The notes below the pieces were generated by a model. That model did no database searches and was not told the origin of the DNA. It saw nothing but the letters and a program-made list of their open reading frames with translations. From Plumapathes pennacea (lineage: Eukaryota > Cnidaria > Anthozoa > Antipatharia > Myriopathidae), in the NCBI GenBank assembly GCA_964036295.1, contig OZ038469.1:1968501-2032500 (forward strand): a DNA stretch of 64,000 nt. The letters run 5' to 3'. A program made the position numbers and the translations under genes. Numbering within the stretch: position 1 is the stretch's first letter; the number at the start of each line of letters is the position of its first letter. Shown one piece after another: positions 11,070-23,000 of this stretch.

Positions 11070-14000
11070 ATGAGCCCTTTAAGGACCTTTGTTCTGTTCT
11101 TCTATCTGATGTGTATTCTGCTTAGAACAGGTACGTTTTGCTTTCCAGTTGTTTTACTAGATAGAAATTCAATCATATTTCACGAATTGTTGTGATCGCC
11201 GTTGCCAGAATATTGCGAAACACAGGAGCATTAAGTAAGACTTTATCCAGGGACCCAAATTAGGGAGTTCCGTGTATTGTAATATGTTTATTGTAATAGT
11301 GTTTGCCTGAGACTGTGTGCTGGGGCCGGGTTCACAAAACTTGCGTGCGAACAGAAATGTTCGTAAGTATAATTTACGCATCGGAACAATTAATGACTTA
11401 CGCACACTATCTTGCACAAGATAGTAAGCGTAAGTCGTACTTACGATGCGTAAGTCATACTTACGAATATTGTCGTTCTTACGCAAGTTTTGTGAATCCG
11501 GCCCCTGGTCTATAACGCCCTTTCCCAGGCACCCTCATAAAAAAATCCAACATGGCGCCCATAAGAGAGCGAAAGAATATAAATATTGGGCTCTTATGCA
11601 GACCACCGTTCTTGTCGAAAGCGGAAATGAGTTGAGAGAAAGTTGAGCTGTAAGGTTACTGGATATGTGGCTGATGTTGCCACATGTTCGAAAAAACGGG
11701 GAGTTTCAAATTTTGATGGTCGAATGGTAAATCACTACTGAGAAGTTTGTACTTTACCAAGATGCTCGCAATGGACTTAATAAAGAAAGAAAAATAGAGA
11801 GGAAAAAGAAAATCCGGTGTCACCCGTATTTTACAGGGGTTCCGCTAGTTGCTCGCGGGGGCCTGGGGCCCAACGCGAGCTTAAAAACGCAAATTTTTAT
11901 TTTTATTTTTATCCTTTTTGTCGGTCGAGAATCAGCACACGGTGATTGGTTCAGATTATCACGTGATATACAATGACGTAATTGACTTCGTTAAACAACT
12001 CGAGTGTGGCTATGAATTGCTCGGTACTTGTGTGTAAAAGTTAACTGCATTTAATCCAAACTCAACACCGTTTGGGTTTGTGCCAAACACGCACTGATAA
12101 ACTGGATGTTAGGGAACGATTTTGTCTTGCGTTCTTTAGTTCACCGCGGAAGCTTTGAGAAAAGCCATAAACAGATGTTTGATGGATACCGCTGGGGGAT
12201 TGCAAATATCTCTGTAACCGCTAAATATTTAGTCCCGACGAAACTTTCTGTGGCGACACGAAATACTTCTGGGAAGAAAACAGGCCGAAAACGGAAATCA
12301 AAGCTACGATGAGCTTTAGCCGCAAAACAATGGCGATTTATGCTTCACTCTGTACATGACATCTGTTGCCTCTTAAAATTCTTCTGCTTATCGTACATTG
12401 CCTGTTGATATGTTTCTTTCATTCGATCATGTAGCCTTTGTTTCGCAATGGTCATTGTATACCAGAAATGAAAAATACACCGAAATAGTCCTGAGTATTA
12501 AGTTTGCAGTCACAAATGAACTGAACAGACTGTGAACAGACTGTGAACAAAACCGCAATAATATTTTAAACATGATTCGTGTTACATTCCTCGCTTTCAA
12601 TTTTATATTTGTTACAAAGCGCGAATACTGGAAAGCCTGATAGAAGAAACGCACTAGTTAATACAAGAAAACACACAAGTATTGAAGCGAAGGCTGGATT
12701 GATCGTGGCCTCTGATTAGAAATAAGAGTCGAATTCGATTGTGCATAAGAAGAGATGTCAGAATTTTCGCTCCTACATTTTTACCGGTTCTAGCGAGCGC
12801 AGCAAGCTGACGTTCGGAGAGAGGTAAGATGACGCGCAACTAAACATATTTAGCCAGTTTTTAAGTTCAATCGTTGCCGAAGACCGCCGTTTGGCGAACG
12901 ACCAAAATCCCCATACATTTCTTTATAATTGCCAAAGGTCATGTTCTTTCGTAATAACAAAGGTATCACATATTACTGTGTGACAAACAGACAGACCCTC
13001 GGAGCCTGGGCTGCCCTGTGTGTATACTAGAAGTGAAAAATACACCGAAATAGTACCGAGCATTGAGTTTGCAGTCACAAATGGACTGAACACGCTGTGA
13101 ACAAAACCGCAATAATATTGTAAACAAGTCTCGTGTTGGGCTCGTGTTACATTCCTCGCTTTCAATTTTATATTTGTTACAAAGCACAAATACTCGAAAG
13201 CCTGATAGAAGTGAAGCGCATTCAGTTAAAAAACAGGACAGACTAGTATTGAAGCGAAGGCTGGAATAATCGTGGCCTCTGATTAGAATTAAGTGTTCGA
13301 AGTCAAACTGTCAAAATTGATTCATAAAAAGACAAGTCACGCATTACTCAGATTTACTCGGTGGGTAACCGTTTCGCTTCTAAGCTCAAAATGCAGAGTC
13401 GCTCAACCTTTAAGAACCAAGTGTAGGAGTGTTGTAATGATAAATTTATAGTTTAATCAGGTTTCATTTAAGCAAGGTGTCAAAAGCCAAGTTCTCTATA
13501 CTGTGTGATATATTTCTGGTGAGAAACTGAAAGTCTCCCGGAAGTTCCGCTCTTGTCCTTGCTTTCCATTTTAGTTTATTCTGCTCTCGACCCAACTAAC
13601 GCAGCGAGCTCACTGGCAACGCCAGTCTAGTTGGTGAAAATAGTACAGCTACTTCCGGTTATATGGATGAAGCTACCTGATTGGTTCCTGTTCGGCCGGA
13701 CGTTTGCCCAGCAATTTTGAAATTGTGAACAAATCGGCTCATGTAAACCGAACCTTTAGTGCTGTAAAAGGGATAGGCATTAAAGAAAATTGGAAAATAA
13801 TACCAAGGAGATATTAAAGCCAAGTTTACAAATTCAGTGAAGTCCAACATTTTGATTCAGTTTGAATTCGGACGGGAACAATGAAACTAAAATAACGAGA
13901 AAACAAACATTTGCGAGTGTATTCACAAGTTCGCGTGATCAATTTCTCATTATTCAGTTTCGATGTTTTGAGCAGTTTCAGCAGGAAACTCGCTCTTTCA

Positions 14001-20000: not shown

Positions 20001-23000
20001 AAATCAGTTCATTAGCTATGTTGTGAATTTCCTACAGATTAGAAAACGGCATGTGTAAATCCCTAAAAAATTTGCAGGTCAGAGGAATTCTTCATAAACG
20101 TACACTTCGAATGAGCGAGGAAAGTGAACAGTTTGATTACTTTCACGTCTGTATACCTAGTGCAGACGGCAATTTACTTAGTGATTATTCCATCGACCAT
20201 GAAAGCTGACGAAGTATAATGCGAGTAATCTCTTGGCTTTCTTAAGTCTTCTTGATGTATTTAGAGAGTTACAGGACGAGAGGATGCGAGGAGGAGGGGG
20301 GGTGACATTTGGGCTATCATGGCTATCGATTAAAGAAAGCAAATATTAGTGACAGAGGTAAGTCTTTTGTTTTCTTGATGGTACAAATTTCTTGTTTTAG
20401 TGACTAAGACAACTCCGCCAAACAGCAGTCCTTCAGGTAAGTGTCCAGTTATTATTATATCTAATCAGCAAATTCTGGTCAAAGTTTGGATGTGTCGCAT
20501 TTCAAAACAAAAGATATATATCCACAGTCTTCGGCACACAGAAACATGATGATAGAAACATTCCCGACACCAGGCTTGAAACCGACAATAATTGAGTTAA
20601 CCAAGATTCTAACATTGTAACATTGTATGTTTTGTTTCACTATTTTTACAGTTAGGCCAAGAACAACTGCTCAATCTACAGGTAAGTGACAACATATGTG
20701 TAGAATATACTTGACAATGCTCTGTAAACGTAGCCTAGTTGTGGTAACTTGCAACACGAAAACATGATACATGATATAATACAAATATGCATTGGCTTAG
20801 CACTTTCAGGCCAAATGAAATTAATCATCTCAAACATGGAAATGGAATGCCAATTGTCTTCGATTTTCAGAGGCTCGAATATATTTGGCAAACAAAGGCC
20901 TGTGGTCGGGAAAGCACATTACGCGCGGAAACTTCGTACAAGAAGGCCAAAACAGTGCCAATTGAAATACACCGTACGGAGATAAAAAATGAACACCGGT
21001 ATTGCTGATTAAACATCAGGTCTATATACAGCCCAAATACAAGAGGTACAATGTATAAGAATGTATTTGATGAACCACCACTCTGATCACTGCAAGTTAG
21101 AAGATGGAAGTGAAGTTATATCTGAGTTCATTTTTATATTTGCAGGAGTAGGTGCTGCTGTTGGGATTACCACTGGTTGTTTTATTTTTGTCTTCTTCTT
21201 CGTCGCTGTTTGTTACGCTATTAAGAAGAAGTGGCAGGAAGGAAGGTACAGAGTCAATAGTATATCTTTACTATAAGACCTGCGAGGGGGGGGGGGGGGG
21301 GGTCTCTCTTGGCTCGGAATGGAATGAGGGGGAGGGGGATGGACAAGGTAAGGGAAGACAGCTTTCCCTTCTCCCCTCCCCACATCGCATTCCGAGCCCA
21401 GAGAGCCCCCCTCCCTCCCCCCTCGCAGGCGAACACTGTTTTACCACTGGGCATCTCAAGTGGTTTCATGTGTCACTTTCAAACTACCATATCATCGCAC
21501 TTTTTGTCACATACTCCTCAAATATGTTGTATTCTTCAGTCTCCCTTCCCAAGAAGAATCAAGAAAACCCAGCATTCACGTTCTCGATAAGTGGGAAGTT
21601 TTACCCGAGAGAATTAAACTCTTAGACGAAATAGGAGAAGGTGCTTTTGGTAAAGTTCACAAAGCCACCTTGGATACAACAAGGTTCACTCGAGGCTTTA
21701 TGGCTCTTCAGAACAGCCAGACAAGAGAGAAAGAAATGTTCGTGGCAGTCAAGACATTACACGGTGCGTTACCGCAGAGACAACCTTGTACAAAATGTTC
21801 AGACATTGCATCTGAGTTCTGTCCCTTCTCCTTCTCCTCCTCCTTTCCCTCAATATTGCAGAGAACGACATTTTTACCGTTTCAATTGAGTTCCATACAC
21901 TTTCTTCTTGCGAGGCTGGGAAATTCTGTATTTTGCGCTTGGGATTAAAAGGGCTAAACAGATATGACGTGACGTGACGCTGACGTGTTATAAATCACTT
22001 TTGCAGGGTACAACAGCTCCAAAGAAAAGAACCTATTTTGCGAGGAGATAAATCTGATGAAGACCATCGGAAAACACCGGAACATCGTCAGCATGATTGG
22101 TTGTGTTACTTTGTCTGAACCAATGCAGCTGATTCTCGAGTATGTACCACATGGAAACCTGCTGGAGTGGCTGAGGAGAAGAAGGATAAAGGTGAGAGAA
22201 CTCTCGACTAGTTAATATATTTCGGTCTTACCACTGTTTTCTCAGATCAATTATAATTATTATTCCCTGAAATGCAATTCTTGAGTGCAGTTTATTGACT
22301 CACTATAATACGGGTCGGCGTTGAAATATCTTTGTCATGATTGGTTTTCCCCCAGCGACACGAGTAGTTATACGACAGAGATATATCGACCAATAGTTGA
22401 TATGGATAAGAGTGGTAAGAGTGGTTAAACTTGTGTTTCGAGCGTTTTCCGTTCGTTGGAGCAAGTAAATCTGGAGCTCGAAGCGTCAGTTCAACCACTT
22501 TTGAGGTGTTAACCGTATCCACATAAACCTTAAACTAAGTTGATATTTTATGCGTTTTATCTTTATGCCGAGGCAGATTAAAGCTTCTTTCTGAATTCCT
22601 CTTTCCATAGGAAAAGAGAAATCTCATCTCTTACGCCAGTATTGAGCACAAATCTGACACTGACGTTAGCCGCGAAAATGTGACCGAAAGAGGTTGCCAT
22701 GGCAATAATGACGATCCTCTCCCAACCATTCAGAGTAAAGTGCCAAACACGGAGGACAGAGCCGGTGGCCATAGCAACGGATCTAAAGTTGTAATCAGTT
22801 TTGATTGTGAAGATTCTGTATCTGTTGATAGCGGTGATCGTAAATTGGAACGAAGCGATGCTTTTGACAATGGTGATGGTGATGATGGTGATGATGATGA
22901 TTATGATGCTGATATTAATGATAATGATAATGATGATGATGATGATGATGATGATGATGATGATGATGATGATGATGATGATGATGATGATGATGATGAT

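Follow-up and report, generated by a model that had tools for sequence, protein, structure and literature searches.

Can a receptor tyrosine kinase (RTK) carry a pair of Ly6/uPAR (LU) domains as its outermost part? The question is raised by a gene at positions 11070 to 25303 on the forward (+) strand of a 64,000-nucleotide stretch of the Plumapathes pennacea genome (contig OZ038469.1, positions 1,968,501 to 2,032,500), and it is this whole stretch that we call the window. The original prediction had proposed, from the letters alone, that exons at 11070 to 21245 join a signal peptide, two LU domains, a Cys-rich, 'lectin-like' region, three W..C..CC repeats, two FN3 domains and a transmembrane (TM) helix to a complete tyrosine kinase. 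All of these modules, apart from the lectin label to which we return below, are present and phase-consistent, and we think it very likely, judging by the exon chain and its phases, that everything from the first LU domain to the kinase belongs to a single RTK gene, its pair of N-terminal LU domains being encoded by exons of phase 1-1, just as had been claimed.

A chain of exons from signal peptide to kinase

Rebuilt from the raw sequence, the gene has 22 exons with AG/GT boundaries and consistent phases, which join into a single open reading frame (ORF) of 1335 amino acids in the order signal peptide, LU1, linker, LU2, linker, CR, three WCC repeats, two FN3 domains, stalk, TM helix and tyrosine kinase (CR being the Cys-rich region, encoded by three exons, and WCC the three W..C..CC repeats, encoded by two). 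The signal-peptide exon (MSPLRTFVLFFYLMCILLRT, 11070 to 11130), which ends in phase 1 and has an in-frame stop at 11031, 5' of its ATG, is followed by LU1 in exon 2 (14341 to 14616, with 12 Cys and the end CCKKDLCN), a short linker in exon 3 (14937 to 14969), LU2 in exon 4 (15410 to 15694, again with 12 Cys, and the end CCQGDLCN) and a Ser-rich linker in exon 5 (16116 to 16151). From LU1 up to and including the second linker all exons are phase 1-1, which keeps the model in frame even if the linkers should prove wrong. Then come CR in exons 6 to 8 (16494-16703, 16904-16973 and 17337-17479), WCC in exons 9 and 10 (17701-17935 and 18162-18436), the FN3 domains in exons 11 and 12 (18786-19073 and 19641-19931), a Pro/Ser/Thr-rich stalk in the mini-exons 13 and 14 (20401-20436 and 20652-20681) and the TM helix in exon 15 (21146 to 21245). 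The frame runs on past 21245 through the kinase exons 16 to 22, which include a long insert (21540-21763, 22007-22191, 22611-23333, 23909-24123, 24455-24495, 24957-25053 and 25150-25303), and it ends with a stop at 25303. The signal peptide and the TM helix were called by hydrophobicity and by eye, and with the single TM helix and an intracellular tyrosine kinase that has its motifs, the predicted protein has the make-up of an RTK.

How firmly are these exons bound together? For the part from CR to the kinase, relatives of the gene give the answer. In a genome of 290 Mb (24 contigs) we found a family of ten loci, two of them partial, and the nine paralogues, A to I, were read in 200 kb of sequence; A, B and C lie just upstream of the window gene on the same strand. 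In all six full paralogues (A, B, D, E, F and G) the exons CRa, CRb, CRc, WCC1, WCC23, FN3a, TM, K1, K2 and K4 keep their order, and their boundaries are AG/GT, of the same phase and no more than 18 nucleotides from the expected sites, as found by a script that looked for same-phase boundaries only, within 45 nucleotides. In none of these six was the acceptor of the kinase insert resolved, and for FN3b the donor is uncertain; K5 to K7 of E, as well as K7 of F and G, fall outside the stretches covered. H and I are partial in these stretches, H showing CRa with a portion of its kinase and I showing FN3, likewise with a portion of the kinase. Since exon order and compatible phases are kept in six paralogues, the part from CR through the kinase is very likely one gene and an old unit. 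The window gene is 47-50% identical to the six paralogues in CR and likewise 47-50% in WCC, and its kinase is 65-71% identical to those of A to G (the last part of the E kinase is missing).

The LU pair is another matter. When LU1 and LU2 were searched by tblastn at E<=1 against the 200 kb around the paralogues, no LU match was found outside the window, and as read from these genomic sequences the LU pair is private to the window copy, the CR-WCC-FN3-kinase core being common to at least six other loci. The two domains are 43% identical to each other and both keep the CC..DxCN end of the LU Cys pattern. LU2 alone matches UPAR_LY6 in Pfam (33.3 bits, cut-off 24.8) and ranks third among the 20 UPAR_LY6 matches in the genome.

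One gene or two, and where the LU pair came from

Several observations weigh against the layout that we favour. LU1 alone stays below the Pfam cut-offs, with its matches falling to related families (Toxin_TOLIP 17.0, CD59 15.6, Activin_recp 14.4 and QVR 13.8 bits), and the 20 UPAR_LY6 matches of the genome do not include it, so that the Pfam search called for at the outset bore out LU2, the FN3 pair and the kinase and left LU1 on its own short. No homologue was found for the linker and stalk mini-exons, and none of exons 3, 5, 13 and 14 is thus confirmed from outside the gene. The acceptor of exon 4 (GAAGAAG) has pyrimidines at just 6 of 14 positions, and exons 8 and 9 have weak donors (5/9 matches), the boundaries of both these exons recurring in paralogues. 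Finally, five putative terminal exons that include moderately hydrophobic stretches can be drawn after LU2 (acceptors 15915, 16072, 16132, 16138 and 16287), so that a separate LU gene is formally possible. As for the mini-exons, the three introns that contain the four of them (30-36 nucleotides) offer 1, 2 and 2 candidates, compared with 0.11, 0.25 and 0.27 in shuffled sequence, by thresholds that were fixed only after the exons had been chosen; of the two linker exons, one is the sole candidate in its intron (0.11 in the shuffles) and the other is one of two (0.25).

Might there, then, be two adjacent genes, one encoding a secreted or glycosylphosphatidylinositol (GPI)-anchored protein with two LU domains (11070 to about 16.3 kb) and the other a downstream RTK that lacks them? 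The drawable terminal exons would suit such a pair, as would the lack of an LU match near any paralogue and the fact that the LU relative which we read on contig C3 is a free-standing gene of the GPI type. However, in six of the seven paralogues that bear CR (A, B, D, E, G and H) a phase-1 exon of signal-peptide type occurs 1.0-2.9 kb 5' of CR, and the seventh, F, has one weak candidate upstream of CR. In the window gene the same scan, taken over the 6.5 kb before CR and set to phase 1, a hydrophobicity of at least 2.0 and a donor matching at least 6 of 9 positions, found no such exon between LU2 and CR; the best candidate is the one at 11070, and another, with a poorer donor, ends at 14302, both lying 5' of LU1. 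The downstream RTK of a two-gene arrangement would therefore be without a signal-peptide-like phase-1 exon between LU2 and CR, and the agreement of the flanking exons in phase 1-1 also speaks against it. So, weakly, does the absence of the poly(A)-type hexamers AATAAA, ATTAAA, AGTAAA and TATAAA at 15165-16740, and thus between LU2 and CR, since few would be expected there anyway. Nor does either LU domain, when read past its donor, acquire a GPI-like tail: LU1 continues as DLCNSKSI and LU2 as NNKPLLRKGKAVNSS, ending in SKSI and KAVNSS, respectively, before a stop. On balance we consider two separate genes very unlikely.

A single gene could still make little use of its LU exons, which might belong to a minor isoform or be decaying after their capture, the main product being signal peptide-CR-WCC-FN3-kinase. 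The LU and linker exons are all symmetric, 1-1, so the frame survives skipping and isoforms without LU are possible by this route; however, the LU exons are open, each has retained its 12 Cys, and the differences between LU1 and LU2 are commonest at third codon positions (36, 29 and 50 at first, second and third positions over 86 codons). We regard this reduced role for the LU exons as unlikely, and continue with a single gene whose LU pair forms part of the receptor.

From where might the pair have come? Among its nearest relatives in the genome is an LU cluster at C3:5.15-5.33 Mb, with at least 11 LU matches. The one member of it that was read, L024, which is also the strongest LU match beyond the window, has a single LU domain, a hydrophobic GPI-like tail (recognised by eye) and a stop in one open frame, with a possible signal-peptide exon upstream whose junction with the LU exon is in phase 1 (the acceptor again chosen by eye). 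We envisage a capture of the LU pair, in the form of phase 1-1 exons, ahead of an RTK which already had its CR-WCC-FN3 ectodomain; alternatively, the 5' part of a GPI-anchored Ly6 gene, signal peptide and LU together, would have been fused to the RTK.

The opposite history, in which the family had LU from the outset and the stem of the other copies lost it, deserves to be taken seriously, and we rate it as possible, if somewhat doubtful. In its favour is a kinase tree (FastTree, with two further kinases from this genome as its root and locus L003 left out), in which the window gene stands outside the seven other copies with a support of 0.887, a position that allows either a gain of LU here or a loss in the stem of the others. 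Against it, the LU exons are similar to a free GPI-LU exon that is likewise entered in phase 1, an observation which a gain explains as well, and the argument from loss draws on one genome. A tree of WCC places the window gene beside a free WCC protein with a support of just 0.341.

Gene C, the third upstream tandem copy (C8:1951367-1957445, loci L009 and L010, on the strand of the window gene), has the same TM-kinase cassette, its kinase being 70% identical to that of the window gene and 75-82% to those of the other copies. Directly 5' of its TM exon lies a 593-codon open frame with 13 EGF_CA repeats (Pfam E 3.5e-105) and a phase-1 donor compatible with the TM exon. Between B and the TM exon of gene C, no CR, WCC or FN3 exons were found, the sole traces being two opposite-strand CRc matches at E 0.2 and 0.99. 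With sister receptors that lack LU, and one that has EGF repeats, the family appears to exchange its sensing parts and to keep one signalling part, so that we seem to be dealing with an RTK family of exchangeable ectodomains and a constant kinase part. Farther 5' of gene C, ORFs at 1946728 and 1947404, which have no Pfam match above cut-off, may be further parts of this gene.

The modules and how the receptor might work

What do the individual modules tell us? The claim of a complete tyrosine kinase stands: Pfam assigns PK_Tyr_Ser-Thr at E 3.7e-89, the frame is open to the stop at 25303, and with its catalytic motifs GEGAFG, VAVK, HRDLAARN and DFG in place the enzyme is probably active. With most of the insert omitted from the query, the best single stretch in the PDB is FGFR3 (E 2.2e-74 over residues 1-285 of 287), followed by other FGFRs and then Tie2 (E 1.1e-67), although the top row by whole-sequence score is a tandem EGFR chain with two stretches of 160 bits. 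The kinase-insert exon is long (723 nucleotides, 241 codons) and contains a poly-Asp run, at most 36 residues, that stems from a GAT microsatellite at 22929 to 23040 (+); the open frames that correspond to the insert in paralogues A, B, C, D, E and G contain no Asp run of this kind. The length of the microsatellite may differ between individuals. The protein ends in ETTL, which we take to fit a class I PDZ-binding motif, and paralogue A ends in TTSL.

On the extracellular side, the FN3 pair is recognised by Pfam (fn3, E 3.3e-9), the first FN3 domain alone reaching 23.5 bits, just under the cut-off of 25, and no Ig domain in the ectodomain rises above the Pfam cut-off (ObR_Ig, sub-threshold, has 14.2 bits on the first FN3 domain). 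The remaining modules are more reticent. As regards a three-finger fold of LU, a PDB profile search returned SLURP1 and CD59 at E 4.8-9.3, the LU-CR-WCC ectodomain as a single query had no PDB match at E<=1, and AlphaFold2, run on window-only alignments, gave a mean pLDDT (its per-residue confidence) of 50.2 for the LU pair, from an alignment of two rows, and 41.7 for the WCC exon.

The lectin-like, or beta-trefoil, reading of CR had to be dropped: at E<=10 no lectin family was found in Pfam for any of seven members, the PDB yielded no lectin match and indeed no match at all, and the three putative internal repeats scored probabilities of 0.5-4.5% in profile comparison, which amounts to no internal repeats found. 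One of the seven CR members matched the unrelated YqiJ_OB in Pfam (E 0.0032). For WCC, two unrelated Pfam families were matched by a single member apiece (E 0.038 and 0.28) and the PDB gave fibrinogen alpha (E 0.25), all of which was taken as chance. WCC also occurs without a nearby kinase exon at two loci, L025 (C1:18924001-18931000), which looks like a small secreted protein, and L026 (C1:21901001-21910000), where WCC stands beside what look like TSP1-like repeats.

How might such a receptor work? An external ligand or partner would bind the distal LU, CR and WCC modules, and two receptors would come together across the FN3 stalk, as established RTK biology suggests; the FGFR/Tie-like kinase would then trans-phosphorylate its activation-loop Tyr, the long acidic insert and the C-terminal tail, leading to the recruitment of adaptors. 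The LU pair would broaden or alter the choice of ligand or co-receptor relative to the sister receptors without LU. GPI-anchored LU proteins, uPAR for example, can serve as co-receptors for other receptors, and by this analogy the LU pair fused to the RTK may be a built-in co-receptor.

A bolder version of this idea, which we consider quite unlikely and offer as speculation, would make the tandem array a receptor system built on one TM-kinase cassette with exchangeable heads (LU with CR-WCC-FN3, CR-WCC-FN3, and 13 EGF repeats), perhaps for the recognition of self, symbionts or microbes; free GPI-LU proteins, for instance those of the C3 cluster, would partner the sisters that lack LU in trans, as co-receptors or as ligands, and the window gene would be the version with its partner built in. 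If the transcript is confirmed, the gene would encode an RTK with two Ly6/uPAR domains as its distal head. The array offers a natural series, with one kinase cassette combined with LU, without LU or with EGF repeats, for comparing what each head contributes. The LU fusion also hints at which free LU proteins could be partners of the sister receptors.

Neighbouring genes and known systems

The rest of the window holds genes of other kinds. Upstream, at 7227-7652 (+), is a helicase-like AAA_12 ORF (Pfam E 1.4e-14), perhaps the 3' part of an Aquarius-like gene. Downstream, the ORF pieces at 26433-29745 (-) look to us like an ABC transporter by motif, and the single piece that was scanned had no Pfam match at E<=0.01; a sulfotransferase-domain ORF of 465 amino acids lies at 35137-36534 (-) (Sulfotransfer_1 E 3.3e-14 over a 418-residue part), and an ORF at 60318-60791 (+), with a partial C1-domain match under the cut-off (23.5 against 26.5 bits), perhaps comes from a protein kinase D-like gene.

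Where does this leave the receptor among known systems? It resembles the vertebrate FGFR and Tie receptors in its kinase, a likeness seen in the PDB matches, and we take its insert to sit at the same place as theirs, but the ectodomain of LU, CR, WCC and FN3, with no Ig domain over the cut-off, and the poly-Asp insert set it apart. LU domains are usually met in GPI-anchored or secreted proteins or, as the three-finger fold, on Ser/Thr kinase receptors. With the GPI-anchored Ly6/uPAR proteins, those of the C3 cluster included, the window gene shares the LU Cys pattern CC..DLCN and, by eye, the phase-1 entry, and it differs in having no GPI-like tail and in its LU exons being spliced to a receptor kinase. 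The TGF-beta and activin receptors raise a three-finger-type ectodomain above a TM helix and a kinase; the likeness consists in the sub-threshold Activin_recp matches, whereas the window gene has a tyrosine kinase rather than a Ser/Thr kinase (HRDLAARN and the RTK matches), extra ectodomain modules, and UPAR_LY6 as the best match of LU2.

Other invertebrate RTKs have unusual ectodomains too, the sweet-tooth type of Hydra among them. Paralogues A to I have the same kinase cassette and, in A, B, D, E, F and G, also CR-WCC-FN3, with no LU match near any of them. The Venus kinase receptors are an earlier example of animal RTKs whose ligand-binding module is unusual, and the openings of the abstracts that describe them make no mention of LU domains (PMC3703292, PMC2680970). 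No RTK with LU domains is named in the titles and abstract openings of the literature that we found, or in passages of PMC8662651, PMC9897584, PMC12549020 and PMC10236652, and to that extent the statement in the original prediction that no RTK with N-terminal LU domains was known holds good; orthologues in other species may already be annotated. Its further description of an 'undescribed signalling system' is too strong, because the gene is one divergent member of a ten-locus family whose core is shared. Extracellular domain shuffling is a general feature of RTK evolution (PMC8662651), and since such shuffling is already known in RTKs, it is the union of LU domains with a receptor tyrosine kinase that is the new part.

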